Below, piece after piece: positions 32,582 to 55,629 of a stretch of 64,000 nt of DNA. The position numbers were made by a program, and so were the translations under genes. Every line of letters starts with the position of its first letter. Within the stretch, counting starts at the first letter, position 1. The notes below the pieces were generated by a model. The model was given only the letters and a program-made list of their open reading frames with translations, did no database searches and was not told where the DNA came from. Source of the stretch: Microbacterium oleivorans (GTDB lineage: Bacteria; Actinomycetota; Actinomycetes; Actinomycetales; Microbacteriaceae); contig NZ_CP058316.1 in assembly GCF_013389665.1 (NCBI RefSeq), positions 2,046,001 through 2,110,000 on the forward strand. Direction: 5' to 3'.

Positions 32582-32587
32582 GAATCG

Positions 32588-34648: not shown

Positions 34649-34664
34649 GGCCCGAGAGTAGCAC

Positions 34665-34683
34665 TTAGGTACAGCTAACCTGA
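34665..34683. promoter_or_regulatory. DtxR/IdeR-type iron box
   Basis: TTAGGTACAGCTAACCTGA matches 15 of 19 positions of the classical TTAGGTTAGGCTAACCTAA site. It overlaps the promoter of the heme oxygenase gene. Confidence 0.8.
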
Positions 34684-34712
34684 AGCTTTTTCCGACGGCT
34701 GGATCGCCGATC

Positions 34713-36472: not shown

Positions 36473-36484
36473 GTGCAATTGCAC
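36473..36484. promoter_or_regulatory. Palindromic operator of the hydroxyproline operon, site A
   Basis: GTGCAATTGCAC is a perfect 12-base palindrome, followed by an extra TTGCAC half-site at 36486-36491. It lies 69 bases before the peptide-binding-protein start. A near-identical site is at 47436-47447. The GntR regulator encoded in the operon is the obvious candidate to bind it. The remainder of 36345-36552 holds a GTGACG-ATCG-CGTCAC hairpin (36408-36423) that may end the previous gene. Confidence 0.7.
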
Positions 36485-36552
36485 ATTGCACCGTGATGTT
36501 GTTTCATGGACAGCACTCGACGCAATGGAGCAGAGAAAGGGAAGGTCCACCG

Positions 36553-38250
36553 ATGACCACCACCAGGAGACTCGCCGGCATCCTCGCCGCGGGAACCGCC
36601 ATGGCACTCGCCCTCACGGCGTGCGGTGCCGGCACCACCGGATCGCCGCAGCAGAGCGGCGCCGCAGGCGAGCCCCAGACCGGCGGCACCGTCCACATGC
36701 TCCAGAACGCCGACTTCTCCTACCTCGATCCGGCGCGCGGGTGGGACGGCGGCGTCAATGCCTTCTACCGCCTGCTGTACCGGGGTCTGACGATGCAGGC
36801 CGCCGGCGACTCCGACGACCCGAACGCGATCGTCCCCGACCTCGCGACCGGACTCGGCGACGTCTCGGACGACGGCCTCACCTGGACCTACACGCTCAAG
36901 GACGACCTGTTCTTCGACAACGGCGACCCGATCACCTCCGCCGAGATGGAGTTCGGCATCTCCCGCGCCTGGGATCCGCAGATCGGCATCGGATCGCCCT
37001 ACCTGAAGACCGTCATCGACGCTCCCGAGGACTACCAGGGCCCGTACGTCTCGGGCGACCTGTCCACGATCGAGACTCCCGACGACAAGACGATCGTCTT
37101 CCACCTGAAGGCGCCGTTCCCGGAGTTCGACAACGTCCTGGCCCAGCCCAACGCCGTGCCCTTCCCGGTCGGCACCGGAGGGGGCGACGAGTTCGTCAAC
37201 GACGTCATCGCCTCGGGCCCGTACACGCTCGAGGCGTACACTCCCGGCAGCACCATCACCCTCGTGCGCAACGAGCACTGGGACGCCGAGACCGACGATG
37301 TGCGCCAGGCCTACCCCGACCAGTGGCAGTTCGACATCGGCATCGACGGCGCGACCATCGACGAGCGCATGATCGCGGGTCAGGGCGCCGATCAGAACGC
37401 CATCGCCGGCAAGATCGCGGGCGCAACCCTGCCCCGCATCCAGACGCCCCAGCTGCAGGAGCGCGCGATCACCGCGCCCGCGTACTGCACGACGTACATG
37501 TCGCTGAACACGACGAAGCCGCCGTTCGACGATGTGCGCGTGCGCCAGGCGGTCAACTGGGCGCTCGACCGCACCAGCATCCAGAACGCCTCCGGCGGCA
37601 ATCAGCTGGCCGACGTCGCGACGACGATCATCCCGCCCGCCGTGAACGGCCACAGCGACTTCGACCTGTACCCCTCCGACGGCGGCACCGGCGACGTCGA
37701 CGAGGCCATGGCGCTGCTCGAGGAGGCGGGACTGGGCGACGGATTCGAGTTCACGCTCGACATCCGCAGCCAGCCGACCGCTCAGGCGCAGGCCGAAGCC
37801 GTGCAGCAGGGCCTGGAGCGCATCGGGGCGGACGTGAAGCTCAACGTCATCGACACCTCGATCTACTACGAGACGATCGCGACCCCGGCGCAGCAGAACA
37901 ACGCCGCGATCACCGGCTGGTGCCCCGACTGGGCCTCCAGCGCCAGCACGTTCATCCCACCGCTGTTCGACGGCGCCGCGATCACCGACAAGGGCAACCA
38001 GAACCTCGCCCAGCTGAACGACCCCGCCGTCAACGAGCGCATCGCCGAGATCCGCGCCATAACCGACGTCGACGCCGCCAACGAGGCGTGGGGCGAGCTC
38101 GACGAGCAGATCATGGAGCTGGCTCCGATCGCGCCGATGGTGTTCGAGAACGGCATCTTCCTGCCGGGCTCGAACATCGCCGGCTACATCCCCAACACCA
38201 ACATGACCGACCTCACCATCGTCGGTCTGAAGGACCCGACGAAGGGCTGA
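36553..38250 (+). CDS. Family-5 peptide-binding lipoprotein of the hydroxyproline-peptide importer
   Basis: 565-residue SBP_bac_5 protein with lipobox LTAC in MTTTRRLAGILAAGTAMALALTAC. Family features: GGTVHMLQNADFSYLDPARGWDGG, WTYTLKDDLFFDNGDPITSAEMEF, VRQAVNWALDRTSIQNASGGNQ and C-terminal QIMELAPIAPMVFENGIFL. The frame extends 60 bases further up, but ATG at 36553 starts the signal peptide and follows AAAGGGAAGG. First gene of the 16-gene run ending at 55629. Given the two prolyl peptidases downstream, the ligand is probably a hydroxyproline-containing peptide or glycopeptide. Confidence 0.9.
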   Translation: MTTTRRLAGILAAGTAMALALTACGAGTTGSPQQSGAAGEPQTGGTVHMLQNADFSYLDPARGWDGGVNAFYRLLYRGLTMQAAGDSDDPNAIVPDLATGLGDVSDDGLTWTYTLKDDLFFDNGDPITSAEMEFGISRAWDPQIGIGSPYLKTVIDAPEDYQGPYVSGDLSTIETPDDKTIVFHLKAPFPEFDNVLAQPNAVPFPVGTGGGDEFVNDVIASGPYTLEAYTPGSTITLVRNEHWDAETDDVRQAYPDQWQFDIGIDGATIDERMIAGQGADQNAIAGKIAGATLPRIQTPQLQERAITAPAYCTTYMSLNTTKPPFDDVRVRQAVNWALDRTSIQNASGGNQLADVATTIIPPAVNGHSDFDLYPSDGGTGDVDEAMALLEEAGLGDGFEFTLDIRSQPTAQAQAEAVQQGLERIGADVKLNVIDTSIYYETIATPAQQNNAAITGWCPDWASSASTFIPPLFDGAAITDKGNQNLAQLNDPAVNERIAEIRAITDVDAANEAWGELDEQIMELAPIAPMVFENGIFLPGSNIAGYIPNTNMTDLTIVGLKDPTKG

Positions 38251-38251
38251 C

Positions 38252-39226
38252 ATGACCTTCAGCTCGGCCCCCCTCGAGGTCGAGGCCACGCCGGGCGGTG
38301 ATTCCCCCGTCGACGAGACGGCGGAATCCCGTCCGGCATCCGGCCGGAGACTCCTCCGAGGCTTCCTCACCGATGTGCCCGCGATGCTCTCGCTCGGCTA
38401 CATCGTGCTCATCCTGCTCATGGCGGTCTTCGCGCCGCTCATCGTGCAGATCAGCGGCTGGTCGCCCTACCAGTTCGATCAGAGCGCGATCGATCCGAAC
38501 ATGGGCGCCATCCCGATCGGGCCGCTCGGCGGCATCAGCGCCGAGCACTGGTTCGGCGTCGAGCCCGGCAACGGTCGCGACATCTTCGCGCGCATCGTCT
38601 ACGGCGCACAGGTGTCGATGACGGTCGCGCTGTCGGCGACGCTCCTGACCACGGTGCTCGGCGTCGTGCTCGGCATGCTCGCGGGCTACCTCGGCGGCTG
38701 GGTCGACACGGTCATCTCGCGGGTCATGGAGTTCCTCATGGCGTTCCCGGCCCTCATCTTCATGATCGCGATCCTGTCGGCACTGCCGGCGGACAACCGC
38801 GTGCTGCTCCTCGTCGTCGTCATCTCGCTCTTCGGCTGGCCCTACCTCGCACGCATCGTGCGCTCGCAGACGCTCTCGCTCAAGGAGCGCGAGTTCGTCG
38901 AGTCCGCCCGCGCGTCGGGCGCCTCCAGCGCGCAGATCATCTTCCGCGAGATCCTCCCGAACCTCTCCTCGACGATCATCGTGATGGCGACCCTCGCCGT
39001 GCCCGGCTACGTCGGCACCGAGGCGGGACTGTCGTTCCTCGGCGTCGGCGTCGTCCCTCCCACGCCGAGCTGGGGCCAGATGATCGCCTCGGCCGCCCCC
39101 TGGTACGCGGTCGATCCGATGTACTTCCTCATCCCGGGCGCGTTCCTCTTCCTCCTCGTGCTCTCGTTCACGACCCTCGGCGACCGCATCCGCGCGATCG
39201 TCGGCAGTGCGGAGGTGCGCGCGTGA
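38252..39226 (+). CDS. Peptide ABC permease, DppC/OppC type
   Basis: 324 residues. A 45-residue acidic cytoplasmic lead, helix 1 (LSLGYIVLILLMAVFAPLI), the OppC loop with HWFGVEPGNGRDIFARIVYGAQ and the transport domain. The EAA loop is REFVESARASGASSAQIIFREILPNL near residues 215-238. The start is one base after the binding-protein stop. Forms the membrane channel with the next product. Confidence 0.92.
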   Translation: MTFSSAPLEVEATPGGDSPVDETAESRPASGRRLLRGFLTDVPAMLSLGYIVLILLMAVFAPLIVQISGWSPYQFDQSAIDPNMGAIPIGPLGGISAEHWFGVEPGNGRDIFARIVYGAQVSMTVALSATLLTTVLGVVLGMLAGYLGGWVDTVISRVMEFLMAFPALIFMIAILSALPADNRVLLLVVVISLFGWPYLARIVRSQTLSLKEREFVESARASGASSAQIIFREILPNLSSTIIVMATLAVPGYVGTEAGLSFLGVGVVPPTPSWGQMIASAAPWYAVDPMYFLIPGAFLFLLVLSFTTLGDRIRAIVGSAEVRA

Positions 39227-40221
39227 GCCGCTTCGTCCTCTCCCGTGCCGCGGGCATGGTCGTCGTGCTGTTCCTGGTGACGCTGTTCACCTTCGTGATC
39301 TTCTTCGTCCTCTCACCGGATCCGGCGGTTCAGATCTGCGGCAAGAACTGCACGCCCGAGCGCATCGACCAGATCCGCGCCAACCTCGGACTGGATCAGC
39401 CGTTCGTCGTGCAGTTCTCGACCTACCTGTCGGGCCTGTTCGTCGGACGCGAGTACGAGATCGCCGGTGCGACCGTCGCGTGCGGCGCGCCCTGCCTCGG
39501 GTACTCGTTCCAGACCGGTCAGCTCGTCGGCGACATGATCGTGCAGCGGCTGCCCATCTCGGCGACGATCGCCATCGGGGCAGCGGTGCTGTGGCTCGTC
39601 GGCGGCGTGGTCGGCGGTGTGTTGAGCGCCGTGCGCGAAGGGCGCTTCGCCGACCGCTTCATCGCGGGGCTCACCCTCGGCTCGATGTCGATCCCGAACT
39701 ACGTCCTCGCGCTTGCGCTCCAGTTCGTGCTCGTCGTCTCGCTCGGCTGGCTGCCGTTCCCCCAGGCGGTGCCGTTCGCCGACGACCCGGTGCAGTGGTT
39801 CCTGAACTTCCTCATGCCGTGGATCGTGCTCGCGGTCGGCTACGCCGCGGTGTACACGCGTCTCACGCGGGCCAACGTCATCGACACGCTGCAGGAGAAC
39901 TTCGTCCGCACCGCGCACGCGAAGGGGCTGCGGCCGAGCCTCGTGTGGCGTCGCCACGCGCTCCGTCCGGCCCTGACGCCCATCGTGACGATCTTCGGGA
40001 TGGACGTGGCGGGTCTGCTCGGCGGCGCCGTGATCACCGAGACGGTCTTCGGGCTCAACGGCGTCGGCAAGCTCACCGCCGACTCGATCTCGTCGAACGA
40101 CCAACCGGTGATCATGGCCGTGACCCTGCTGTCGGCGTTCTTCGTGATCGTCGGCAACCTCGTCGTCGATCTGCTGTACGCCGCGATCGACCCCCGTGTA
40201 CGGACGGCGGCGCGCGCATGA
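39223..40221 (+). CDS. Peptide ABC permease, DppB/OppB type
   Basis: 332 residues: N-terminal helix with LFLVTLFTFVIFFVLSPDPA, a periplasmic loop with two Cys pairs (QICGKNCTPE and ACGAPCLGYS, possibly disulfides), then the six-helix core and EAA loop VIDTLQENFVRTAHAKGLRP near 228. GTG start overlaps the previous stop by four bases. Confidence 0.92.
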   Translation: MSRFVLSRAAGMVVVLFLVTLFTFVIFFVLSPDPAVQICGKNCTPERIDQIRANLGLDQPFVVQFSTYLSGLFVGREYEIAGATVACGAPCLGYSFQTGQLVGDMIVQRLPISATIAIGAAVLWLVGGVVGGVLSAVREGRFADRFIAGLTLGSMSIPNYVLALALQFVLVVSLGWLPFPQAVPFADDPVQWFLNFLMPWIVLAVGYAAVYTRLTRANVIDTLQENFVRTAHAKGLRPSLVWRRHALRPALTPIVTIFGMDVAGLLGGAVITETVFGLNGVGKLTADSISSNDQPVIMAVTLLSAFFVIVGNLVVDLLYAAIDPRVRTAARA

Positions 40222-41120
40222 CCGGCGAAGGGGCGACGATGGCGACCACGGCTGCGACATCCGACGATCTCCTGCGCGTCGATGACCTGACGGTGCAGTT
40301 CCGCACCGCCGGAGGCATCGCGCGCGTCGTGGACGGCCTGAGCTTCTCGGTCCCGCGCGGCGGCGCCCTCGGCATCGTCGGCGAGTCGGGCTCGGGCAAG
40401 TCCATGACGAGCCTGGCGATCATGGGACTGCTGCCCCGGGGCGGCATCGCCTCGGGGTCGGTCGGCTTCGACGGACGCGATCTGCTCACCCTCCCCGGTC
40501 GGGAGATGCGTCAGGTCCGCGGCGACCGGATCGCGATGATCTTCCAGGACCCGCTGTCGTCGTTGAACCCGTACTACACCGTGGGCACGCAGATCGCCGA
40601 GGCGTACCGGTCGCACCGGTCGGGCGTCTCACGGCGCGCGGCCCGGCGGGTGGCGATCGAGGCGATGGAGCGCGTCCACATCCGGGATGCCGCGAAGCGC
40701 GTCGACCATTACCCGCACCAGTTCTCGGGCGGCATGCGCCAGCGCATCATGATCGCGATGGCGCTCAGCATGGAGCCCGAGCTGATCATCGCGGACGAGC
40801 CGACCACCGCCCTCGATGTGACCGTGCAGGCGCAGATCCTGGAGCTGCTCGCCGAGATCCGGCGCGACACCGGCGCCGGTCTCATCCTCATCACCCACGA
40901 CCTGGCCGTGGTGAGCGAGGTGACCGAGCGGATCGTCGTCATGCGAGCCGGCCGGATGGTCGAACGCGGCAGCGTCGAAGAGGTCTTCAGCGACCCGCAG
41001 GAGGAGTACACCCGACGCCTGCTCGACGCGGTGCCGCGCATCGACGACACGATCGGAGAGCTGCGCACGACCGACATCGCGATCGTCCCGGAGCGGGAGA
41101 TCGAGGAGGAGACGGCATGA
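40218..41120 (+). CDS. Peptide ABC ATPase, DppD/OppD type
   Basis: 300 residues: Walker A GESGSGKSMTSLAI, Q-loop FQDPLSSLNPYYTVG, signature FSGGMRQRIMIAMAL, Walker B LIIADEPTTALD, H-loop LITHDLAVV. The family tail DPQEEYTRRLLDAVPRID is present. ATG at 40218 overlaps the permease stop (ATGA); the longer frame upstream is the permease gene in another frame. Confidence 0.93.
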   Translation: MTGEGATMATTAATSDDLLRVDDLTVQFRTAGGIARVVDGLSFSVPRGGALGIVGESGSGKSMTSLAIMGLLPRGGIASGSVGFDGRDLLTLPGREMRQVRGDRIAMIFQDPLSSLNPYYTVGTQIAEAYRSHRSGVSRRAARRVAIEAMERVHIRDAAKRVDHYPHQFSGGMRQRIMIAMALSMEPELIIADEPTTALDVTVQAQILELLAEIRRDTGAGLILITHDLAVVSEVTERIVVMRAGRMVERGSVEEVFSDPQEEYTRRLLDAVPRIDDTIGELRTTDIAIVPEREIEEETA

Positions 41121-42007
41121 CCGATCAGACAGCGCCGCTGTGCCGGGCAACGGGCCTCGTGAAGGAGTTCTCGAGCTCGGGAGCCACGATGTTCTCGCGC
41201 AGCAGCACGTTCCGCGCCGTCGACGGGGTGGATCTCGACATCCGTCGCGGCGAGACCCTCGCCCTCGTGGGGGAGTCGGGATCGGGCAAGTCCACCGTCG
41301 CGCGGCTCATCGCCCGCCTCATGGACACGACGGCGGGGAGGATCGAGTTCGAGGGTCGCGACGTCACGCACCTGCGGGGGAGCGATCTGCATGCGTTCCG
41401 CAGCGACGTGCAGGTGATCTTCCAGGACCCGTACTCGTCGCTGAACCCGAAGCACACGGTCGAGCGGCTCGTGACGGCTCCGCTGCGCTACCAGAACCGT
41501 GCGGTGCCGGGAGGCGCCCGGGCCTTCACCCGGTCGCTCATGGAGCGCGTGGGGTTGAACCCCGCCCACTCCGATCGCTACCCGGCGCAGTTCTCGGGAG
41601 GCCAGGCCCAGCGCATCGGCATCGCGCGCGCCCTCGCGGTCGGTCCGAAGATGGTCATCTGCGACGAGGCCGTGTCGGCGCTCGACGTGTCGGTGCAGGC
41701 CCAGGTGATCAACCTGCTCACCTCGCTGCAGCGCGACGAGGGCTTCGCCTACCTCTTCATCGCGCACGACCTCGCCGTCGTCCGCCAGATCGCGACGCGC
41801 ATCGCCGTGATGAGCCGCGGGTCGATCGTCGAGGCGGGGGAGCGCGATCGCGTCTTCGAGAACCCGCAGCACGAGTACACCCGTACGCTGCTCGCGGCGG
41901 TGCCTCGCATCAACCCCGAGTGGGACCGCCGCCGGCGCGCCGCCGAGAAGGCGCGGCGAGCCCGAACGGCAGCGGCCGCATCCCAGACCCAGACGGAGGC
42001 ATCATGA
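41117..42007 (+). CDS. Peptide ABC ATPase, DppF/OppF type
   Basis: 296 residues: Walker A GESGSGKSTVARLIA, FQDPYSSLNPKHTVER, signature FSGGQAQRIGIARAL, Walker B MVICDEAVSALDVS, H-loop FIAHDLAVV, tail NPQHEYTRTLLAAVPRI. It pairs with the preceding ATPase; unlike the first importer of the window the two ATPases are separate genes. Starts by ATGA overlap. Confidence 0.93.
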   Translation: MTDQTAPLCRATGLVKEFSSSGATMFSRSSTFRAVDGVDLDIRRGETLALVGESGSGKSTVARLIARLMDTTAGRIEFEGRDVTHLRGSDLHAFRSDVQVIFQDPYSSLNPKHTVERLVTAPLRYQNRAVPGGARAFTRSLMERVGLNPAHSDRYPAQFSGGQAQRIGIARALAVGPKMVICDEAVSALDVSVQAQVINLLTSLQRDEGFAYLFIAHDLAVVRQIATRIAVMSRGSIVEAGERDRVFENPQHEYTRTLLAAVPRINPEWDRRRRAAEKARRARTAAAASQTQTEAS

Positions 42008-43293
42008 CGACCGAGTACCACCTGCCCGGCATCCGGGTGGCGGAGCGTCGCATCGACGTCCCCCTGGACTGGAGCGCGGGAACGGCGGCTGCGGGCACCA
42101 TCGAGCTTCTCGTGCGCGAGCTCGTGGACCCCGACCGGTCCCGTGACGACCTCCCCCTCCTGGCGTTCCTGCAGGGCGGTCCCGGCGGGGCCAACCCGCG
42201 GCCGCTGCGCCGCGACGGCTGGATCGACGAGGCGCTGCGCGACTACCGCATCGTGCTGGTCGATCAGCGCGGCACCGGCGGGAGCACGCCGCTCGAGGCA
42301 GCCGATCTGGCACGGCTCGACGGGGCCGCCGGCGCAGACCTGCTGGCGCTGCACCGGGCCGACTCGATCGTGCGCGACCTGGAGCACGTCCGCGAAACCC
42401 TGTACGGCGGGCGGCGCTGGGCGACGCTCGGGCAGAGCTACGGCGGATTCCTCACGCTCACCTATCTCTCGCTCGCACCCGAGGCCCTGACCGCCTGCTA
42501 CGTGTGCGGCGGCATCCCCGGCCTCCCGGCGCGGGCCGCGGAGGTGTACGCGCGCACCTTCGACCGTGTCGCGGCGAAGACGGCCGAGCTGTACCGCCGG
42601 TACCCGGACGACGCCGAGCGGGTCGCTCGGATCGCCGATCGTCTCGCCGAGGGCGACGTGACGCTGCCCGACGGCGACGTGCTCACCGTGCGGCGCTTCC
42701 AGTCCCTCGGCATCGACCTCGGGATGAAGCCCGGCCACGAGCGCCTGCACTGGCTGGTCGAGAAGGCGTTCGCCCGGCCGGGACGACTCTCCGAGGCGTT
42801 CCTCGCCGACGTGCAGGCATCGAGCTCCAGCGCGGGCAATCCCCTGTTCTGGACGCTCCAGGAGTCGATCTACGGCGACCCGTCCAGTGGCGCCACCGCA
42901 TGGGCGGCTCAGGCCGAGCGCGACCGGCGCCCCGCGTTCGACGAGGACCGTCGGCCCCTGCTGTTCACCGGCGAGATGGCCTTCCCGTGGATGTTCGACG
43001 ACGTTCGGCTGCTGCGCGGATTCCGGGATGCCGTCCATGCGCTCGCCGAGCGCGCGGAGTGGAACCCGCTGTACGACGCCGCGCGGCTCGCGGTGAACGA
43101 TGTGCCGCTGGCCGCGGCGGTGTACTTCGACGACATGTACGTCGATGCCGGGCTGCAGCTCGAGACGCTCGCGCGCGTCGGCAACGCGCAGTCGTGGGTC
43201 ACCAACGAGTTCGAGCACGACGGCATCGGGTCGGGCCGCACCTTCACGCGGCTCCGCGAGCTCGTACGCGACCGCGGAGGAGAGAAGCGATGA
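42004..43293 (+). CDS. Proline iminopeptidase-like alpha/beta hydrolase (S33)
   Basis: 429 residues, cytosolic. S33 features: oxyanion region LAFLQGGPGGANPRPLR near residue 53, LVDQRGTGGSTPLEAADL near 84, nucleophile in TLGQSYGGFLTLTYLS near residue 143, acid in FDDMYVDAG and His in NEFEHDGIGSGR. Prolyl aminopeptidases of this type remove an N-terminal Pro, and some accept hydroxyproline. ATG at 42004 overlaps the ATPase stop. Placed after a peptide importer and before a hydroxyproline pathway, it probably frees Hyp from the N-terminus of imported peptides. Confidence 0.85.
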   Translation: MTTEYHLPGIRVAERRIDVPLDWSAGTAAAGTIELLVRELVDPDRSRDDLPLLAFLQGGPGGANPRPLRRDGWIDEALRDYRIVLVDQRGTGGSTPLEAADLARLDGAAGADLLALHRADSIVRDLEHVRETLYGGRRWATLGQSYGGFLTLTYLSLAPEALTACYVCGGIPGLPARAAEVYARTFDRVAAKTAELYRRYPDDAERVARIADRLAEGDVTLPDGDVLTVRRFQSLGIDLGMKPGHERLHWLVEKAFARPGRLSEAFLADVQASSSSAGNPLFWTLQESIYGDPSSGATAWAAQAERDRRPAFDEDRRPLLFTGEMAFPWMFDDVRLLRGFRDAVHALAERAEWNPLYDAARLAVNDVPLAAAVYFDDMYVDAGLQLETLARVGNAQSWVTNEFEHDGIGSGRTFTRLRELVRDRGGEKR

Positions 43294-47491: not shown

Positions 47492-48390
47492 CCGACCGCA
47501 AGCCGTGGCACGGCGTCAACCTCGCGACGACGCTGCCCTTCCACGACGACCTCTCCGTCGACTACGACGCCTACGCCGAGCTCGTGCGTTTCGCGATCGC
47601 TGGCGGGGTGACCGGCATCATCCCCAACGGTTCGCTCGGCGAGTACCAGACCCTCACCGAGGACGAGCGCAAGCGCGTCTTCCTCACGGCCGTCGAGGCT
47701 GCGCCCGACGCGGCGGTGATCCCCGGCGTCGGCGCCTACGGCGCGCTCGAGAGCGTGCGGTTCGCCGAGCACGCGGCCGAGAACGGTGCGCCGGCCGTCA
47801 TGCTGCTGCCCCCCAACGCCTACCGTGCGAGCGACGACGAGGTCGTCGACCACTACCGGCGCGTCGCCGCCGTCGGCCTCCCGATCCTGGCGTACAACAA
47901 CCCCATCGACACCAAGGTCGACCTGCGACCCGACCTGCTCGCGCGCCTCTTCGACGAGGGGCTGATCGTCTCGGTCAAGGAGTTCTCGGGCGACGTGCGC
48001 CACGCATACGAGATCCGCGAGCTCGCCCCCGGCCTCGACATCTCCATCGGCTCGGACGACGTCGTCTTCGAGCTCGGCCTCAACGGCGCCGTCGGCTGGG
48101 TGGCGGGTTACCCGAACGCCATCCCCGCCGCCACGGTCGAGCTCTACACGCTCTCGACCTCCGACGACCCGCGGGACTGGGTGCGGGCGCGCCAGATCTA
48201 CCGCGATCTGCACCCTCTGCTGCGGTGGGACTCGAAGACGTGGTTCGTGCAGGCGATCAAGCTGTCGCAGCAGGTCGCCGGGGTCCTCGCGAACACGACC
48301 ACGCGGCCGCCCCGCCTGGCGCTGCCCGACGAGGTCGCCGCGCGTATCATCGCCGACACCGAGGCCGTGCTGAGCAAGGGCTACCGCTGA
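47488..48390 (+). CDS. DapA-superfamily aldolase, probable 1-pyrroline-4-hydroxy-2-carboxylate deaminase
   Basis: 300-residue class I aldolase of the dihydrodipicolinate synthase superfamily. Schiff-base Lys164 in IVSVKEFSGD, catalytic Tyr136 in LAYNNPIDT, and the binding motif GIIPNGSLGEYQTLTEDER (the usual GTTGE here is GSLGE). In hydroxyproline catabolism this superfamily deaminates and opens delta-1-pyrroline-4-hydroxy-2-carboxylate to 2-oxoglutarate semialdehyde. The neighbouring epimerase, dehydrogenase and aldehyde dehydrogenase leave exactly this step open. ATGA overlap with GH127, plus its own operator just upstream. Confidence 0.85.
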   Translation: MTDRKPWHGVNLATTLPFHDDLSVDYDAYAELVRFAIAGGVTGIIPNGSLGEYQTLTEDERKRVFLTAVEAAPDAAVIPGVGAYGALESVRFAEHAAENGAPAVMLLPPNAYRASDDEVVDHYRRVAAVGLPILAYNNPIDTKVDLRPDLLARLFDEGLIVSVKEFSGDVRHAYEIRELAPGLDISIGSDDVVFELGLNGAVGWVAGYPNAIPAATVELYTLSTSDDPRDWVRARQIYRDLHPLLRWDSKTWFVQAIKLSQQVAGVLANTTTRPPRLALPDEVAARIIADTEAVLSKGYR

Positions 48391-48444
48391 GCCGCGACCC
48401 GCGCCGCCCCTGACCCCCGCCGCCGACGACCGAAAGGCTCCCGC

Positions 48445-49446
48445 ATGCGCACGAAGCGCGCCTTCCACGCCGTGGACTCGCACACCGAGGGGATGCCGAC
48501 GCGCGTGATCGTCGGCGGCGTCGGCACCCTCCCCGGCGCCACGATGGAGGAGCGGCGGCAGCGGTTCATGGCCGAGAACGACGGCCTGCGACGGCTGCTG
48601 ATGAACGAGCCGCGCGGGCACAGCGCGATGAGCGGAGCCATCCTGCAGCCGCCCACCCGACCGGATGCCGACTTCGGCGTGCTCTACATCGAGGTCTCGG
48701 GCTGCCTGCCGATGTGCGGGCACGGCACGATCGGGGTGGCGACCGTCCTCGTGGAGACGGGCATGGTCCCGGTCGTCGAGCCCGTCACGACGATCCGTCT
48801 CGACACGCCCGCGGGTCTCGTGGTCGCCGACGTCGCCGTCTCGGACGGGCACGCCGACCGGGTCACGATCCGCAACGTGCCCTCGTTCGCCGTCGGGCTC
48901 GGGCGCACGGTCGAGGTTCCCGGGTTCGGCGCGGTTCCCTACGACCTCGCGTTCGGGGGCAACTTCTACGCGATCGTCCGTCTCGACGACATCGGGCTGC
49001 CGTTCGACCGCGCCCGCAAGGACGAGCTGCTGCACGCCGGGCTCGCCATCATGGCCGCCGTCGACGAGGCCGACGCGCCGGTGCATCCGGTGGACACGAC
49101 GATCCGCGGGTGCCACCACGTGTACCTCGAGGCCCCCGGCTCCACCGCTCGGCACTCGCGGCACGCGATGGCCATCCACCCGGGCTGGTTCGACCGCTCG
49201 CCCTGCGGCACGGGCACCAGCGCGCGGATGGCTCAGCTGCACGCGCGCGGCGAGCTGCCGCTCCACGCCGACGTCGTCAACGAGTCGTTCATCGGCACCG
49301 CCTTCACCGGTCGACTCGTCGAGGAGACCGAGGTGGCCGGCATCCCCGCCGTGATCCCGACGATCACGGGCCGTGCCTGGGTCACCGGGACGGCGCAGTA
49401 CATGCTCGACCCCTCCGACCCGTTCCCCGAGGGATTCGTGCTGTGA
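48445..49446 (+). CDS. 4-hydroxyproline 2-epimerase (proline racemase family)
   Basis: 333 residues. Both catalytic cysteines are present: Cys91 in LPMCGHGTIG and Cys254 in RSPCGTGTSARMA. Two cysteines mean racemase/epimerase chemistry; the trans-3-hydroxyproline dehydratases of the family have Thr at the second position. It converts trans-4-hydroxy-L-proline to cis-4-hydroxy-D-proline, the substrate of the FAD dehydrogenase encoded downstream. A GAAAGG site precedes the ATG. The 54-base gap before it is by far the largest spacing inside the operon after its first gene. Confidence 0.9.
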   Translation: MRTKRAFHAVDSHTEGMPTRVIVGGVGTLPGATMEERRQRFMAENDGLRRLLMNEPRGHSAMSGAILQPPTRPDADFGVLYIEVSGCLPMCGHGTIGVATVLVETGMVPVVEPVTTIRLDTPAGLVVADVAVSDGHADRVTIRNVPSFAVGLGRTVEVPGFGAVPYDLAFGGNFYAIVRLDDIGLPFDRARKDELLHAGLAIMAAVDEADAPVHPVDTTIRGCHHVYLEAPGSTARHSRHAMAIHPGWFDRSPCGTGTSARMAQLHARGELPLHADVVNESFIGTAFTGRLVEETEVAGIPAVIPTITGRAWVTGTAQYMLDPSDPFPEGFVL

Positions 49447-50417
49447 CGGCGGTGCCGCTCGTCTCGGCCGAGACCATCGAACGCGTCATGAGCCCCGCGG
49501 CCGCCGTCGCGGCGATCACGACCGCGCTGGCCTCCGGGCTCGATGTCGAGGCCGACCACGAGCGCGTCTTCGCGCCCCTGTCGGCGGGTGAGTTCCTGCT
49601 GATGCCGTCGGAGTCCCCGGATGCCGCGGGCATCAAGGTCGCCACCGTCGCGCCGGGGAACACCCGGCTCGGACTGCCGAAGATCAGCGCCTGGTATCTG
49701 CTGTTCGACCGGAACACCCTGCAGCCCGCGGCGATCGTCGATGGGACGCGCTTGACGACGCTGCGCACTCCGGCGGTCACGGCCGTCGCCGTGCGCGGAC
49801 TGCTCGCCGCCGACCCGCGGGGACCCCGGGAGGGGATCGACCGACTGGTGGTGCTCGGCTCGGGACCTCAGGCTGTCGAGCATGTCGCGACGCTGGCGGC
49901 GATCCTCCCGGTCCGAACCGTCACCATCGTGGGGCGCACGCCCGGCCGTGTCGACGCGGCGGTCGCCACGCTCCGCCGGCGCGGGCTCGACGCCGGCGCC
50001 GGCGACATCGGCGACACCCGCGGCGCCGATGTCGTGGTCACGGCGACGTCGTCGAGCACGCCCGTGCTCGCCCTCGCCGACGTCGCGCCGGGCGCCGTCG
50101 TGGCCGCGGTCGGCGCCCACGGCCTCGACCACCGCGAACTGGAGGCCGACCTCGTGATCGCGGCCGACATCGTCGTCGAGGCCCGGTCCTCGGCCGTACG
50201 CGAGAACGGCAATCTCGCGGGCGCGGCCGCGGCGTCGCCCGGGCGGTCGCTCGCGGCGCCGGCGAACCTCGTCGAGCTCGTGCGCGGCGAGGTCGTCCGG
50301 CGTCCGGACGCTCCGGCGGTGTACACCGGGGTCGGCATGGCCTGGGAGGACCTGGCCGTGGCGCAGGGGATCATGGAGATCGAGCGGCGGGAGACCGCAC
50401 CGGAGGAGACGACATGA
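49443..50417 (+). CDS. Ornithine cyclodeaminase / mu-crystallin family, probable delta-1-pyrroline-2-carboxylate reductase
   Basis: 324 residues: KVATVAPGNTRLGLPKISAWYLLFD near residue 65, the substrate loop VDGTRLTTLRTPAVTAVAV, the Rossmann motif LVVLGSGPQAVEHV near 138 and C-terminal PAVYTGVGMAWEDLAVAQGI. In proline-racemase clusters such enzymes reduce delta-1-pyrroline-2-carboxylate to L-proline with NAD(P)H. Here it could salvage an imine produced from D-proline by the neighbouring dehydrogenase. GTG start overlaps the epimerase stop. Confidence 0.82.
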   Translation: MTAVPLVSAETIERVMSPAAAVAAITTALASGLDVEADHERVFAPLSAGEFLLMPSESPDAAGIKVATVAPGNTRLGLPKISAWYLLFDRNTLQPAAIVDGTRLTTLRTPAVTAVAVRGLLAADPRGPREGIDRLVVLGSGPQAVEHVATLAAILPVRTVTIVGRTPGRVDAAVATLRRRGLDAGAGDIGDTRGADVVVTATSSSTPVLALADVAPGAVVAAVGAHGLDHRELEADLVIAADIVVEARSSAVRENGNLAGAAAASPGRSLAAPANLVELVRGEVVRRPDAPAVYTGVGMAWEDLAVAQGIMEIERRETAPEETT

Positions 50418-51118
50418 GCACGCCCGAGTTCCGCAACGTGGTGCGGTTGAGCAAGCAGCCCAGCATCCGCGCCACGGTGACCCGCGCCCTGCGCGCCGCC
50501 GTGATCAGCGGTGAGCTCCAGCCGGGCCGCGTCTACTCGGCACCGAGCCTCGGCGAGCAGTTCGGCGTCTCGGCGACGCCCATCCGCGAGGCGATGCTCG
50601 ACCTCGCGCGCGAAGGGCTCGTCGTGACGATCCCGAACCGCGGGTTCCAGATCACCGAGGTCTCCGAGCGCGACCTGCGCGAGGTCACCGAGTTGCGCCT
50701 CATGCTCGAACCGCCCGCCGTCGAGCGGGCGACCCCGCTCATCCCGGCCACGGCGCTGCCGGACCTGCGCCGCAAGGCCGCCGACATCGTCGCGGGGGCC
50801 GCGTCGGGCGACCTCGTCGAGTACCTCGCCGCCGACAGCGACTTCCACCTGGCCCTGCTGCACTATGCGGGCAACGCCCGCCTCGTCGAGCTCGTGGCGG
50901 GCCTGCGATCGCAGACCCGCCTGTTCGGACTCGCGTCGCTGCACGAGCAGGGGCGCCTGGTGGCCTCCGCGCACGAGCACGACCTGATGCTCGACGCGAT
51001 CGAGGCCGGCGACGCCGCGACGGCGCGCGACCTCGTCCACCGCCACATCGAGCACGTGCTCACCGACTGGTCGGCAGACGCGCCGCCCGCGACCGCCGAC
51101 GCGAGCGTGGGGACGTGA
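50414..51118 (+). CDS. GntR-family (FadR/FCD type) regulator of the hydroxyproline operon
   Basis: 234 residues. N-terminal winged helix: RATVTRALRAAVISGELQPG and the recognition helix SLGEQFGVSATPIREAMLDLAREGLV. The C-terminal FCD domain keeps likely metal/ligand residues DSDFHLALLHYA, HEHDLMLDAI and VHRHIEHVL. Encoded inside the operon with ATGA overlaps, so it is autoregulated if it binds site A or B. Ligand presumably a hydroxyproline pathway intermediate. Confidence 0.9.
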   Translation: MSTPEFRNVVRLSKQPSIRATVTRALRAAVISGELQPGRVYSAPSLGEQFGVSATPIREAMLDLAREGLVVTIPNRGFQITEVSERDLREVTELRLMLEPPAVERATPLIPATALPDLRRKAADIVAGAASGDLVEYLAADSDFHLALLHYAGNARLVELVAGLRSQTRLFGLASLHEQGRLVASAHEHDLMLDAIEAGDAATARDLVHRHIEHVLTDWSADAPPATADASVGT

Positions 51119-52281
51119 GCGCCGCATCCCGACACCCCGACGTGCTCGTCATCGGGGCGGGAATCGTGGGTGCGGCGGTCGCGCACTTCGCCGCCGCGGC
51201 CGGGTTCTCGGTGACCGTCGTCGAACGCGGGACGATCGCGGCCGGCACCACCAGCCGCTGCGAGGGCAATCTGCTTGTGAGCGACAAGGAGGTCGGTCCC
51301 GAGCTCGAGCTCGCGCTGCACTCGCAGCGCATCTGGCGCGGCGAGCTCGCTGAGCACGCCGCGCGGTGGGAGTTCGATTCGAAGGGCGGGCTGGTCGTCG
51401 CGGCGAGCGGCGCCGGCAAGAGCGCCCTCGACGTGCTCGCCGATCACCAGCGCAGCCTCGGGATCCGGGCGGAGGACGTCCCCGACGTCGCCGCCCTGCA
51501 CACGATCGAGCCGTACCTGAACCCGGCCATGACGGGTGGGGTCTACTACCCCGACGACGCACAGGTGCAGCCGGTGCTCGCCGCGCACCACCTGCTGCGC
51601 CTGGCACGCGACCGCGGCGCGCGCCTCATGACGGGCGTGGAGGTCACCGGCATCCGCACGCACGCCGGTCGCGCCGTCGGCGTCGACACCGCCGCCGGCT
51701 CCATCGGCGCCGGCACTGTGATCAACTGCGCCGGGCCGTGGGCCGGCGAGATCGCCGCCCTCGCCGGCCTCGACCTGCCGGTACTGCCGCGACGCGGCTT
51801 CGTGCTGGTGACCGAGCCGGTTCCGGTGACCGTGCATCACAAGGTGTACGCCGCCGAGTACGTGCAGAACGTCGCCTCCTCGGATGCGGGGCTCCAGGTG
51901 TCCTCGGTTGTCGAGGGCACACCGAGCGGCACGATCCTCATGGGAGCCAGCCGCGAGCGCGTCGGCTTCGACACGGCGTTCTCGGCGGCGGCCGTGGGGC
52001 GCGTCGCCCGCGCGGGCGCGGAGTTGTTCCCGGTGCTCGCCGACGTGCAGATCCTCCGCACCTACTCGGGGTTCCGGCCGTACTGTCCCGACCACCTGCC
52101 CGTCATCGGGCCCGACGCACGGCTGCCGGGCCTCTGGCACGCCGCCGGGCACGAGGGCGCCGGCATCGGGCTCTCGGTCGGCACCGCGGCCCTCATCGTG
52201 CAGGCTCTGCGCGGCGAGCCGACCGATCTGCCGCTCGAGGCCTTCCGGCCCGAGCGCTTCTCCGAGCGGGTGGCGGCATGA
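51115..52281 (+). CDS. D-hydroxyproline dehydrogenase, FAD (DadA/HcnC-like) beta subunit
   Basis: 388-residue DAO-family flavoprotein. The FAD Rossmann motif VLVIGAGIVGAAVAHFAAAAG is at the N-terminus; GTTSRCEGNLL, YYPDDAQVQPVLAAHHLLRLA and the C-terminal GFRPYCPDHLPVIGPDA with GHEGAGIGLSVGTA complete the fold. It oxidises the C-N bond of a cyclic D-imino acid. With the next two genes it forms a HcnABC-like three-subunit membrane-associated dehydrogenase as in known D-hydroxyproline dehydrogenases. GTG start overlaps the GntR stop. Confidence 0.88.
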   Translation: MSAASRHPDVLVIGAGIVGAAVAHFAAAAGFSVTVVERGTIAAGTTSRCEGNLLVSDKEVGPELELALHSQRIWRGELAEHAARWEFDSKGGLVVAASGAGKSALDVLADHQRSLGIRAEDVPDVAALHTIEPYLNPAMTGGVYYPDDAQVQPVLAAHHLLRLARDRGARLMTGVEVTGIRTHAGRAVGVDTAAGSIGAGTVINCAGPWAGEIAALAGLDLPVLPRRGFVLVTEPVPVTVHHKVYAAEYVQNVASSDAGLQVSSVVEGTPSGTILMGASRERVGFDTAFSAAAVGRVARAGAELFPVLADVQILRTYSGFRPYCPDHLPVIGPDARLPGLWHAAGHEGAGIGLSVGTAALIVQALRGEPTDLPLEAFRPERFSERVAA

Positions 52282-52595
52282 CCGTGGATGCCGCCGACGG
52301 CTACACCTTCGCGTTCGACGGCGCGCCCGTCCCCTTCCGCCCCGGACAGAGCGTGGGCGCCGCACTCGCGGCATCCGGCATCACCTCCTGGCGCACGACC
52401 CGGGGCGCGGGCGAGCCGCGGGGACTCTTCTGCGGGATCGGCGTCTGCTACGACTGTCTGCTGAGCGTGGACGGCCTGCGGTCGCAGCGCGCGTGCGTGA
52501 CCGTGGCGCGGGCCGGACAGGACGTGCGCAGCGACGACCCCGGTGCCGCTCTGGCGCGACCGGCGGATGCATCGAGCGACGGGACCCGAGCGTGA
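52278..52595 (+). CDS. D-hydroxyproline dehydrogenase, [2Fe-2S] (HcnA-like) gamma subunit
   Basis: 105 residues, a ferredoxin-like domain: FAFDGAPVPFRPGQSVGAAL, then the cluster cysteines in GLFCGIGVCYDCLLSVDG and a fourth in SQRACVTVA. It relays electrons between the two flavin subunits. ATGA overlap on both sides. Confidence 0.9.
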   Translation: MTVDAADGYTFAFDGAPVPFRPGQSVGAALAASGITSWRTTRGAGEPRGLFCGIGVCYDCLLSVDGLRSQRACVTVARAGQDVRSDDPGAALARPADASSDGTRA

Positions 52596-54157
52596 GTGCG
52601 ATCCCCTTCGACCTCGCCGTCGTCGGCGCCGGGCCCGCGGGTCTGTCGGCCGCGGTCGTGGCCGCCGAGGCGGGCCTGCGGGTCGTGCTGATCGACGCCG
52701 GCGTGCAGACCGGCGGGCAGTACTGGCGGCATCCCGACGAGCGGCACCTCGACGCCTTCGCGGCGCCGGAGCACACGGGCCATCATCACTGGGATCACTA
52801 CCGCGCCCTCCGCGACCGGCTGCGGCGACGCATCTCGGACGGTCGGGTGGACCACCGGGCCGGTCGCCAGGTGTGGCGCATCGACCCCGCGGGCGACGGC
52901 ACGGTGTTCGCGCTGCGCACCACCGCCGTCGCGGGGCTCGACGACGCGGCGCCGGCCGATCGTGCGATCCACGCCCGGCGCGTCGTGCTCGCGCCGGGCG
53001 CGTACGACCGCCAGCTGCCCCTCCCCGGATGGACGCTGCCGGGGGTGATGGCCGCGGGTGGCGTGCAGGCGATGCTGAAGGCTAACCAGGTCACGGCCGG
53101 CCGCCGCGCCGTCGTCGCGGGAACGGGACCCTTCCTCCTCTCGGTGGCCGCGGGGCTCGCCCGCGCGGGGGTCGAGGTCGTCGCCGTGTGCGAGGCCAAC
53201 GCCCTGTCGCGCTGGGCGGCGACGCCGCTCCGCGCCGTGCAGGAACCCGCCAAGCTGCTCGAGGGGGTCGGCTACGCCGCGACCTTCCTGCGCCATCGCA
53301 TTCCGCTGCATACGCGCACGATCGTCGCTCGGGTCGCGGGCGACGAGCGCGCGAGGGGGGTCACGATCGCCGCCGTGGACGGCGACGGCCGCGTCCGTCC
53401 GGGCACGGAGCGCGACCTCGACGTCGATCTGGTCGCCCTCGGGTGGGGGTTCACGCCGCAGCTCGAGCTCGTCGTCGGCGCCGGCGCCCGGACCCGGGTC
53501 GACGTCGACGGCTCACTCGTCGCCGTCGTCGACCGGGATCAGCGCACGAGCGTCGCCGGGCTCTACGCGGCGGGGGAGGCCACCGGTGTCGGCGGTGCCG
53601 TGCAATCGTGTGCGGAGGGTGAGCTCGCGGCCCTCGCCGCGGCCGTCGACAGCGGCTACGGCATCCCTTCGGCTCGGGCGCGACGGCTCCGACGCCGCAT
53701 CGCGCGCGGCCGGCGCTTCGCCGTCGGGATGCACCGCGCGAGCCCCGTGCCGGAGCACTGGGCGTCCTGGCTGCACGACGACACGCTCGTCTGCCGGTGC
53801 GAAGAGGTCACGGTGGCCGCGGTGCGCGAGACCGTCGTCGACCTCGCCGCAGACGATGCGCGCGACGTGCGCGTCACCGCTCGTCCGGGCATGGGCATGT
53901 GCCAGGGCCGCGTCTGCGGCTTCGCGCTGTCGTGCCTCGTGGCGGACCGGACCGGTCGACCGACTCGGGCGGCCGATCTCGAGCCCCTCGTCCGCCGTCC
54001 CGTCGGAACACCCATCCGTGTCGCCGACCTCGCCGCCCTCGCCGACCTCTCGGGCGTCGCGGATGCCGAGGCGCCCGGCCCCACCGACCCGGTCGCCCCC
54101 TCCGGCCTCACCCCGTCAGACCTCGCAGACCTCGCTCCTCGGAAGGAACGCCCATGA
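52592..54157 (+). CDS. D-hydroxyproline dehydrogenase, second flavoprotein (HcnB-like) alpha subunit
   Basis: 521 residues. Pyridine-nucleotide-disulfide-oxidoreductase fold: AVVGAGPAGLSAAVVAAEAG at the N-terminus, a second nucleotide motif VVAGTGPFLLSVAAGLARAG near residue 170 and GLYAAGEATGVGGAV near 322. The C-terminal BFD-like domain has a [2Fe-2S] site, CRCEEVTV and GMGMCQGRVCG. This is the standard partner in HcnABC-type amino-acid dehydrogenases. A long Pro/Ala tail follows. GTG start overlaps the preceding stop. Confidence 0.88.
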   Translation: MSAIPFDLAVVGAGPAGLSAAVVAAEAGLRVVLIDAGVQTGGQYWRHPDERHLDAFAAPEHTGHHHWDHYRALRDRLRRRISDGRVDHRAGRQVWRIDPAGDGTVFALRTTAVAGLDDAAPADRAIHARRVVLAPGAYDRQLPLPGWTLPGVMAAGGVQAMLKANQVTAGRRAVVAGTGPFLLSVAAGLARAGVEVVAVCEANALSRWAATPLRAVQEPAKLLEGVGYAATFLRHRIPLHTRTIVARVAGDERARGVTIAAVDGDGRVRPGTERDLDVDLVALGWGFTPQLELVVGAGARTRVDVDGSLVAVVDRDQRTSVAGLYAAGEATGVGGAVQSCAEGELAALAAAVDSGYGIPSARARRLRRRIARGRRFAVGMHRASPVPEHWASWLHDDTLVCRCEEVTVAAVRETVVDLAADDARDVRVTARPGMGMCQGRVCGFALSCLVADRTGRPTRAADLEPLVRRPVGTPIRVADLAALADLSGVADAEAPGPTDPVAPSGLTPSDLADLAPRKERP

Positions 54158-55629
54158 CCGCCGCCGCATCCCCCGTCGCCGACACGCCCATCGCCGAGGT
54201 CGACGCGTTCATCCGCGTCGCCGACGCGGCATCCGCCGCGTGGCGAGCGGCGACCATCGCCGAGCGCGGCGAGGCTCTCCGTGCGGTCGCCGAGGGCCTC
54301 GACGCCCGCGCCGACGACCTCGTCACGCTGGCCGGGAGCGAGACTCACCTGGCCGAGGGGCGGTTGCGGGGCGAGCTGAAGCGCACGACGTTCCAGCTGC
54401 GGCTGTTCGCCGACGTGCTCGCGGAGGGCTCCTGGCTCGACGCGCGTATCGACCACCCCGATGCCGACTACCCGATGGGGGCGCCGCGGCCCGACCTCCG
54501 TCGGCAGCTCGAGGGCATCGGCACCTCGCTCGTGTTCGCCGCGAGCAACTTCCCCTTCGCCTTCTCGGTCGCCGGCGGTGACACCGCCAGCGCGCTGGCA
54601 GCGGGCAACGCCGTCGTGCTCAAGGCGCACCCCGGGCACCCGCAGCTGTCGGCGCTGACCGGTGAGATCGTCGCGGCCGCGCTGTCGGCAGCCGGAGCGC
54701 CGACGGGGATCTTCACCGTGATCCACGGCACGGATGCCGGAGTGCACGCGCTGCGGCACCCGTCGATCCGGGCGGCCGCCTTCACCGGATCGATCGCCGG
54801 TGGTCGCGCCCTGTTCGACATCGCGATGTCACGCCCCGAGCCGATCCCGTTCTACGGCGAGCTCGGCAGCGTCAATCCCGCGTTCGTCACCCGCCGAGCC
54901 GCCGCGGACCGTGCCGCCGAGATCGCCGAACAGTTCGTGGCCTCGGTGACGGGCAGCGCCGGACAGCTCTGCACGAAGCCCGGCGTGCTGTTCGCGCCGA
55001 CCGGTTCCGGTGTGCTCGAGGCGCTCGCCGCGACCGTCCTTCCCGCTCCGGCTCCGCTGCTGAACGACGGCATCGCGTCGGGCTTCCGCCGCTCCCTCGA
55101 GCGCACGGCCCAGCACGACGGCGTCGAGGTGCTCGCCGGGTCCCCGGCCGCCGAGGGCGCCGACCCGGCGCCGGCGCTGCTGCGCACGACCGTCGCGTCG
55201 GTGATCGCCGATCCCGAAGCGCTCGTCTCCGAGATGTTCGGTCCGGCGGCCCTCGTGGTCGAGTACGACGACGAGGGGGACCTGGTGGCGGTCGCGAGGC
55301 TGCTCGAGGGCCAGCTGACCGCGACACTCATCGCCGAGGAGGGCGACGCGCTCGCCGCCGAGCTGCTGCCCGTGCTGGCGACGAAGGCCGGCCGGGTGCT
55401 GTGGAACCAGTGGCCCACGGGCGTCTCGGTGACCGACGCGCAGCAGCACGGCGGACCGTATCCGGCGACGACCGCGGTCGGCACGACCTCGGTCGGCACC
55501 GCCGCGATCACGCGCTTCCTCCGGCCGGTGGCGTATCAGAACGTGCCCGACGCGCTGCTGCCCGCGGCGCTCCAGGAGGCCAACCCGCTCGGCATCCCGC
55601 GGCGCGTCGACGGCGTGCTCGAGGCCTGA
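54154..55629 (+). CDS. Aldehyde dehydrogenase, probable 2-oxoglutarate semialdehyde dehydrogenase
   Basis: 491 residues of the NAD(P)+ ALDH superfamily. SNFPFAFSVAGGDTASALAAGNAVVLKAHP (cofactor binding, near 130-160), AFTGSIAGGRALFD, general base Glu in FYGELGSVNP near 237 and nucleophile Cys in SAGQLCTKPG near 273. The FAGGD/KAHPGHP sequence is typical of the 2,5-dioxovalerate (2-oxoglutarate semialdehyde) dehydrogenase clade, the last step of hydroxyproline catabolism feeding the TCA cycle. ATGA overlap; last gene of the run. Confidence 0.9.
   Translation: MTAAASPVADTPIAEVDAFIRVADAASAAWRAATIAERGEALRAVAEGLDARADDLVTLAGSETHLAEGRLRGELKRTTFQLRLFADVLAEGSWLDARIDHPDADYPMGAPRPDLRRQLEGIGTSLVFAASNFPFAFSVAGGDTASALAAGNAVVLKAHPGHPQLSALTGEIVAAALSAAGAPTGIFTVIHGTDAGVHALRHPSIRAAAFTGSIAGGRALFDIAMSRPEPIPFYGELGSVNPAFVTRRAAADRAAEIAEQFVASVTGSAGQLCTKPGVLFAPTGSGVLEALAATVLPAPAPLLNDGIASGFRRSLERTAQHDGVEVLAGSPAAEGADPAPALLRTTVASVIADPEALVSEMFGPAALVVEYDDEGDLVAVARLLEGQLTATLIAEEGDALAAELLPVLATKAGRVLWNQWPTGVSVTDAQQHGGPYPATTAVGTTSVGTAAITRFLRPVAYQNVPDALLPAALQEANPLGIPRRVDGVLEA

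Follow-up and report, generated by a model that had tools for sequence, protein, structure and literature searches.

A sixteen-gene operon of Microbacterium oleivorans predicted to serve import, deglycosylation and catabolism of arabinosylated hydroxyproline peptides

Analysing a stretch of 64,000 nucleotides from Microbacterium oleivorans (contig NZ_CP058316.1, positions 2,046,001 to 2,110,000; hereafter the window, to whose numbering all operon positions refer), part of a genome of 3.35 Mb in a single contig, we found an operon that joins a peptide importer, two peptidases and a glycosidase to genes of 4-hydroxyproline (Hyp) catabolism. Open reading frame and domain analysis placed its 16 genes at 36553-55629, all on the plus strand; with the chosen starts, there is an overlap of exactly 4 bases at 13 of the 15 gene junctions, and the remaining two are gaps of 1 base (binding protein gene to permease gene) and 54 bases (DapA-like gene to proline-racemase-family gene). 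An earlier note on this DNA had described 16 co-directional, mostly overlapping genes and named the families of the importer, the peptidases, the Hyp enzymes, the GntR regulator and the aldehyde dehydrogenase; both descriptions held, since Pfam and NCBIfam returned the same families and searches of the PDB did likewise. Its starting point for the locus, 36473, is not the start of a gene, as the binding protein gene is taken to begin at 36553 (an alternative start lies further upstream at 36493), but that stretch bears a palindrome and makes a candidate operator. All 16 genes are found in identical order, at 71-97% identity, in Microbacterium sp. AG238 (locus L038), and the gene order is therefore far beyond chance.

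The first five genes encode an ATP-binding cassette (ABC) importer. The substrate-binding lipoprotein (36553-38250) belongs to SBP family 5 (PF00496, E 2e-71), carries a lipobox-like LTAC at residues 21-24 and has as its best solved relative 2wok, an oligopeptide-binding-like protein (PDB search, E 7.8e-85). It is followed by permeases of the OppC/DppC type (38252-39226; PF00528, PF12911) and the OppB/DppB type (39223-40221; PF19300, PF00528) and by ATPases of the OppD/DppD type (40218-41120; PF00005, with oligo_HPY at 24.3 bits, just below the cut-off of 27.1) and the OppF/DppF type (41117-42007; PF00005 and oligo_HPY; GsiA/DppF-like below cut-off in NCBIfam). An SBP_bac_5 lipoprotein with two permeases and two ATPases, one of them slightly short of the oligo_HPY threshold, is the make-up of an Opp/Dpp-type importer, and peptide transport is predicted. 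The two genes that follow encode an S33 alpha/beta-hydrolase peptidase resembling prolyl aminopeptidases (42004-43293; PF00561, with PF12146 below cut-off), whose top PDB matches are 8jgm and 8jgn (Arabidopsis At3g61540, E 3e-93), proline iminopeptidases matching more weakly, and an M24B aminopeptidase P or Xaa-Pro aminopeptidase (43290-44732; PF00557, PF05195), matched by structures of the PepP type (PDB search, E 1.5e-46).

Next to the M24B gene lies a gene for a putative beta-L-arabinofuranosidase with C-terminal beta domains (44729-47491; its start is ambiguous between 44699, 44729 and 44732). The earlier note had called it GH127, which stands in so far as Pfam finds the GH127 catalytic domain (PF07944, E 2.7e-76), but the enzyme is not HypBA1-like and appears nearest to GH146 by both sequence profile and fold. 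The profile E-values were 2.9e-86 for the GH146 structure 5opj (BT0349), 9.7e-70 for Bll3HypBA1 and 2.2e-13 for the GH127 enzyme HypBA1; CCGGTGLENH stands in place of the CCPPN of HypBA1-type enzymes; and GH146 structures were the first fold matches of the predicted structure (predicted local distance difference test, pLDDT, 77.5; predicted template modelling score, pTM, 0.81). The catalytic Glu and Cys of Bll3HypBA1, its Glu-Cys3 zinc site and an essential E578 have been described (PMC10850190). In the window enzyme these catalytic and zinc positions (E694, E723, C725, C804 and C805) are matched in the alignment by E323, E341, C343, C411 and C412, and E578 is matched by E227; none of the six residues varies in any of the 53 rows of the glycosidase alignment. 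No signal peptide was visible at the N-terminus, and as far as that end of the protein shows the enzyme is probably cytoplasmic. XeHypBA1, which has been assigned to GH146 (PMC10850190), acts on and prefers arabinosyl-hydroxyproline (Ara-Hyp; PMC6085000). The genome holds a second PF07944 gene, of the GH127 type (L167:9607-11595, contig C1, ~1.35 Mb), away from the Hyp operon and with divergent genes that by eye resemble sugar-importer genes.

The rest of the operon encodes together all four enzyme families of the trans-4-hydroxy-L-proline pathway, namely epimerase, D-Hyp dehydrogenase, deaminase and 2-oxoglutarate semialdehyde (KGSA) dehydrogenase. The DapA-family protein (47488-48390; PF00701, best PDB match 3na8) carries a VKE motif with the candidate Schiff-base Lys164 and is proposed, by analogy to SCO6292, to be a pyrroline-4-hydroxy-2-carboxylate deaminase. 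The proline-racemase-family protein (48445-49446; PF05544, E 2.4e-126) has the catalytic pair C91 and C254, confirming the two-Cys enzyme of the earlier note and differing from the Cys/Thr pair of trans-3-hydroxy-L-proline (t3Hyp) dehydratase; its best NCBIfam model is 4-hydroxyproline epimerase (349 bits against 376 required), and we propose that it acts as a 4-hydroxyproline 2-epimerase. An OCD/mu-crystallin family reductase (49443-50417; PF02423, E 1.7e-38), whose best NCBIfam models are pyrroline-2-carboxylate reductases below cut-off, is regarded as accessory; we dropped it as a core part because only 10 of 53 loci have an OCD gene (25 of the 53 show the epimerase). The D-Hyp dehydrogenase would consist of a beta-type subunit (DAO; 51115-52281; PF01266, E 3e-70), a gamma-type subunit (2Fe-2S with four Cys; 52278-52595; PF13510, E 2.9e-18) and an alpha-type subunit of the FAD/pyridine nucleotide-disulphide type (52592-54157; PF07992, soxA-like below cut-off). 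The last gene encodes an aldehyde dehydrogenase (54154-55629; PF00171, E 3.2e-41; best NCBIfam model 2,5-dioxovalerate dehydrogenase, below cut-off), the proposed KGSA dehydrogenase. For the epimerase, deaminase, OCD protein and aldehyde dehydrogenase alike, every NCBIfam match fell short of the curated cut-off, and their substrate assignments therefore rest on context.

Between the OCD and DAO genes lies a GntR/FCD regulator of the FadR type (50414-51118; PF00392, PF07729), proposed to be a HypR-like repressor, relatives of which were found in 42 of 53 loci. The palindrome-bearing candidate operator read from the sequence 5' of the binding protein gene, GTGCAATTGCACATTGCAC (36473-36491), resembles the HypR site weakly. 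Of 14 Microbacterium-type loci (the window included), 13 have an ATTGCA/TTGCA-type element ahead of the binding protein gene, the exception being L056; few loci of other genera have one. The HypR motif CTNTGC(A/C)ATGTCAC was not found at the operon heads, its core occurring at 1 of 162 heads and in 1 of 64 other regions, and the HypR-related TTGCACNGTCA occurs at six of the 162 heads, all of them Microbacterium binding-protein heads, and in two of the 64 others (shuffle means 0.15 and 0). A single conserved operator for the whole system was dropped, as the TTGCA-type element is common only to Microbacterium-type loci.

From the observed gene content, catalytic residues, conservation and repeated co-location we infer, as the probable function, that the operon serves short peptides or glyco-amino acids bearing beta-L-arabinofuranosylated 4-hydroxyproline. 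The lipoprotein and ABC importer would import the peptide with its sugar still attached, the GH146-like enzyme would strip its arabinose in the cytoplasm and the S33 and M24 peptidases would cleave at proline or hydroxyproline, the order of sugar and peptide removal being itself presumed. Free L-Hyp would then be converted to 2-oxoglutarate by the epimerase, the three-subunit D-Hyp dehydrogenase, the DapA-like deaminase and the aldehyde dehydrogenase, and the L-arabinose would pass to an ara pathway encoded elsewhere in the genome, where araA lies ~480 kb from the operon. The GntR-FCD protein would repress the operon.

The importer, peptidases and glycosidase recur as a cassette in other actinobacteria. 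Scanning one genome per species (84,980 species) for the glycosidase, we examined the best 80 of 178 confirmed loci and split them, mainly by match length, into 52 short and 28 long, three cut-off matches being assigned from their neighbours or identity (L085 and L088 to the short set, L101 to the long one). M24 lies 5' of the short-type glycosidase in 51/52 loci, directly before it in 49, and the full set of importer, S33 and M24 is present in 43/52; of the nine others, five start near a contig edge (L049, L055, L059, L067, L075), one has the importer on the opposite strand (L081), and parts were not found in L057, L064 and L088. The rows of the S33 tree that belong to short-type cassettes span ten families. 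A survey for the same gene order had been suggested in the earlier note: the importer and peptidases do recur beside the glycosidase in these families, and all 16 genes keep their order in L038, but the order of the Hyp part varies by genus. By a rough rule a signal-like N-terminus occurs in 2/52 short versus 25/28 long relatives; a hydropathy threshold of 2.2 failed as a separator, being exceeded by 0/52 and 4/28. No S33, M24 or epimerase match was found in the flanks of the 28 long loci, some of which lie on short contigs (L101, L110), and long-match relatives were used only as a comparison set free of cassette neighbours. Reading them as proteins of 1240 amino acids was rejected, as the frame ends ~680 residues past the match start and the match crosses frames.

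In five Promicromonospora loci, among them L060 (12800-14221), we noted a predicted protein directly 3' of the glycosidase, with a weak M6-peptidase match below cut-off in L060, the one checked; it may be a protease that the system uses outside the cell. Near the operon in L042 (560-1684, by Pfam) and six other Microbacterium or Streptomyces loci lies a gene of the class-V aminotransferase family.

The cassette is closely linked to the epimerase. Among the 48 genomes with a short-type glycosidase locus (of 52 loci) covered by the epimerase search, all 48 have an epimerase relative, the best match being at least 69% identical in each, against a background, with that E-value limit unchanged, of 68/299 genomes sampled from the window's family. 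The epimerase is on the same contig and within ~15 kb of the glycosidase in 38/48, counted by contig (coordinates alone would give 42/48). If the genes form one unit, a beta-L-arabinofuranosidase is expected in that unit in other genomes, and this was largely what we found when S33, a bait blind to the glycosidase, was used: 54 S33 genes occur in 50 of the 299 family genomes, 27 lie within 15 kb of an epimerase, and a PF07944 gene is within 15 kb of S33 in 22 of these 27. Comparative genomics thus supports the single unit of import, sugar removal, peptide cleavage and Hyp catabolism claimed in the earlier note. S33 genes lacking cassette neighbours (L138, L139, L142, L143) were set aside as paralogues. 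Across the family a PF07944 gene lies within 25 kb of the epimerase in 25/68 genomes versus ~1.2 expected under random placement, with five weak PF07944 places (18.6-24.1 bits) excluded, so that 42 rather than 44 family genomes count as PF07944-positive.

The S33 bait also revealed a second glycosidase type. Of 20 S33 loci examined from other genomes of the window's family, 14 have the importer (L135 partially), and all 14 carry a different PF07944 enzyme just 5' of the binding protein gene. These enzymes have 617-685 called residues, some being cut at the edge of the stretch, and the CCPPN motif in 14/14; all GH127 domains are present by Pfam in the three checked (L126, L133, L144), and L133, the one searched, aligns to HypBA1 along most of its length (E 2e-83). 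Hyp genes follow in 12 of the 14, the usual order being GH127-SBP-permeases-ATPases-S33-M24-GntR-DAO-2Fe2S-FAD-DapA-ProR-ALDH. In other genera, to judge by sequence, a non-orthologous HypBA1-like GH127 enzyme thus replaces the GH146-like enzyme in the same cassette. The other six S33 loci comprise four with S33 alone and two (L141, L145) with Hyp genes, a different importer and no PF07944 gene. As each glycosidase type forms one group in the S33 tree (support 100/100 and 83/89), the swap could have been a single event, and many independent recruitments of glycosidases were rejected.

The Hyp genes seem to tell of a different history. They lie 3' of the cassette on the same strand in Microbacterium and Glycomyces (with different internal order), 3' on the opposite strand in Brachybacterium, 5' on the opposite strand in Promicromonospora, and 5' on the same strand in Streptomyces, Kineosporia, Actinosynnema, Symbioplanes and others. 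The S33 genes of the Microbacterium-type, Glycomyces, Promicromonospora and Ruaniaceae loci form one group (100/100), whereas the DapA tree splits the Microbacterium-type Hyp module from those of the other three (100/100; the branches are long and call for caution). Given this discordance, the Hyp modules beside the cassette seem to differ in ancestry and to have been joined to it more than once, the independence of the joinings being drawn from Hyp-module ancestry and gene orders and not from the glycosidase types. Outside the family, in genus g135 (L146:6611-19901, L147:7005-19900), the neighbours of a Hyp operon are a larger PF07944 enzyme, which in L147 bears LamG, and a different importer of the dipeptide type. 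In L148 (8401-18670) and L150 (6329-15921) a HypBA1-like GH127 gene and apparent sugar-type permeases stand beside the Hyp operon (the L148 binding protein by Pfam), a further arrangement by which the use of arabinosides and of Hyp seems to be linked.

Sugar genes accompany the cassette in related loci. In Leucobacter sp. wl10 (L055:151-16228) one strand carries S33-M24-GH36 alpha-galactosidase-GH146-like-LacI-araD-araB-araA-galM-galT-galK, where the roles of araD and araB (aldolase- and FGGY-family genes) are presumed from their place beside araA; this run would be the complete sugar side of the cassette system. Six loci in all have GH36: in Pseudoclavibacter L046 it lies between M24 and the glycosidase (Pfam), and four Glycomyces loci have a relative at the locus edge (by sequence clustering only). 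M. arabinogalactanolyticum L040 has araDBA-like genes 3' of the glycosidase, by similarity to L055. The Ser-Hyp4 units of extensin carry alpha-galactose on Ser and arabinofuranoses on Hyp (PMC5371791), and the occurrence of GH36, araDBA and galMTK alongside the cassette therefore makes extensin-type glycopeptides the best single guess at the substrate. That extensin is the main natural source we hold to be close to an even call, as other arabinosylated Hyp peptides fit equally well. In M. arabinogalactanolyticum a Hyp operon apart from the cassette (L154:1-19901) has as neighbours a second OCD gene and a distantly related (37%) gene of the proline-racemase family, which may form a branch for 3-hydroxyproline.

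Several observations weigh against a function in arabinosylated Hyp use. The predicted glycosidase structure is of low confidence in the active-site loops, and GH146 also includes the beta-1,3-arabinofuranoside-specific Bll3HypBA1, which acts on arabinogalactan protein and arabinan (PMC10850190). In 10 of the 48 genomes the assembled contig does not have the epimerase close to the glycosidase, five of the 27 S33-epimerase loci have no nearby PF07944 gene, and two of these five are L141 and L145 with their Hyp genes and different importer. In a class-wide sample (79 of 80 genomes outside the window's family) at least 10 of 80 epimerase genomes have a nearby PF07944 gene, a lower bound that comes from one genus, against ~0.9 expected; many of the co-location counts, moreover, draw on genomes that are related to one another and cannot be taken as independent trials. 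The epimerase of L055 and L040 is found on a different contig or ~190 kb away, so that sugar and Hyp catabolic genes were never seen in one run, and the window operon itself has neither an alpha-galactosidase nor ara genes.

These points bear on three other explanations. The operon might serve the use of Gly-Pro-Hyp peptides of the collagen or gelatin type, with the glycosidase gene as a passenger: importer-S33-Hyp loci without glycosidase exist (L141, L145), 70 of the 80 epimerase genomes of the class-wide sample have no linked PF07944 gene among the matches listed, and the similar Hyp core of Streptomyces coelicolor shares a regulon with a collagenase (PMC6608401). Against it stand the invariant catalytic residues, the PF07944 gene in 22/27 S33-baited loci, the non-orthologous beta-L-arabinofuranosidase in 14/14 importer loci lacking the GH146-like type, and the GH36 and ara/gal genes that join the cassette in Leucobacter, and we consider this explanation unlikely. 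Similarly improbable is an importer for free Hyp-O-arabinosides or beta-arabino-oligosaccharides, with the peptidases used for some other purpose. SBP family 5 is a broad one, and L148 and L150 do pair a GH127 gene with apparent sugar-type permeases beside the Hyp operon; Bifidobacterium longum, too, imports the sugar alone (PMC7263609). Against this, the window importer is of the Opp/Dpp type and M24 directly precedes the glycosidase in 49/52 loci.

Last, the epimerase could be a proline racemase in an operon degrading proline peptides, with the OCD protein recycling pyrroline-2-carboxylate. The OCD gene is there, and NCBIfam models for proline racemase and for the epimerase both match below cut-off; most loci, however, have no OCD gene, the DapA-like and aldehyde dehydrogenase steps belong to the 4-Hyp pathway (PMC4113996), and the S. 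coelicolor epimerase mutant grows on proline and not on L-Hyp (PMC6608401), so that we regard this as very improbable. Use of arabinosylated Hyp peptides or glyco-amino acids remains our preferred explanation.

Parts of such a system are known. In S. coelicolor the HypR regulon SCO6289-SCO6294 is Hyp-induced and HypR-repressed, and deletion of its epimerase abolishes growth on L-Hyp while growth on proline is kept; like the window operon it has a three-subunit D-Hyp dehydrogenase, a deaminase, an epimerase and a GntR-FCD regulator, but it has no peptide importer, peptidase or glycosidase and no KGSA dehydrogenase nearby, and it is tied to a collagenase (PMC6608401, text examined in part). The HypAA-HypBA2-HypBA1 cluster of B. 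longum, which serves Hyp-linked arabinosides of extensin, likewise has an ABC importer and a beta-L-arabinofuranosidase inside the cell; unlike the window operon, it has a beta-Ara2 sugar importer, extracellular trimming and a GH127 enzyme, with no Hyp genes or peptide use described in the text examined (PMC7263609). Xanthomonas euvesicatoria xehypBA1/BA2/AA include a GH146 enzyme active on Ara-Hyp and adjoin a (broken) predicted prolyl oligopeptidase gene, but these enzymes have signal peptides and the text examined describes no Hyp catabolism or importer (PMC6085000). Neighbourhoods of 4HypE and t3HypD in the proline racemase superfamily also combine the epimerase with DAO, DHDPS, aldehyde dehydrogenases and transporters, and a t3HypD cluster of Bacilli is named with OCD, ABC/TRAP transporters and peptidases; a glycosidase is nowhere mentioned in the portion of that survey seen (PMC4113996). 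In 'Latescibacteria' a GH127 enzyme proposed to act on extensin occurs with peptidases and oligopeptide importers in one organism, but as genes of single-cell genomes, and the text examined holds no such locus or Hyp catabolic pathway (PMC4454575). Among the matches listed in the open-access literature, covered by titles and abstract openings with subscription journals outside the scope, we found no description of a locus joining all steps, in keeping with the earlier note.

Hydroxyproline-rich glycoproteins are a pool of nitrogen and carbon in plant walls, and of the bacterial steps that we found described, some concern the sugar (Bifidobacterium, Xanthomonas) and others the free amino acid (Hyp operons), each separately. 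One conserved unit joining both would offer a testable route by which actinobacteria use a protein together with its sugar; the operon context also gives likely substrates for the peptide importer and the two peptidases and predicts the specificity of an intracellular GH146 enzyme. More tentatively, and we think doubtfully, the unit could be a mobile arabinosyl-hydroxyproline glycopeptide cassette of at least ten actinobacterial families that imports intact glycopeptides, deglycosylates them inside and may also take up secreted plant peptide signals. Small secreted plant peptide signals of the CLE, PSY and HypSys types carry arabinosylated Hyp, and if this were true, bacteria at the root could be feeding on plant hormones.

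The neighbourhood of the operon in the window holds genes of other kinds. On its 5' side lie genes for a PIF1-like helicase (32096-33967), a heme oxygenase (33992-34846, minus strand) and a serine beta-lactamase-fold protein (35097-36344). On its 3' side, genes for a DUF2264 protein (58447-60462) and a D-isomer 2-hydroxyacid dehydrogenase (57449-58450), both on the minus strand, are accompanied by a lone SBP_bac_1 gene (56152-57435, plus strand) and a gene for a LacI-like sensor with a DeoR-type HTH (60531-61655); this group of genes is probably a separate sugar-acid locus.

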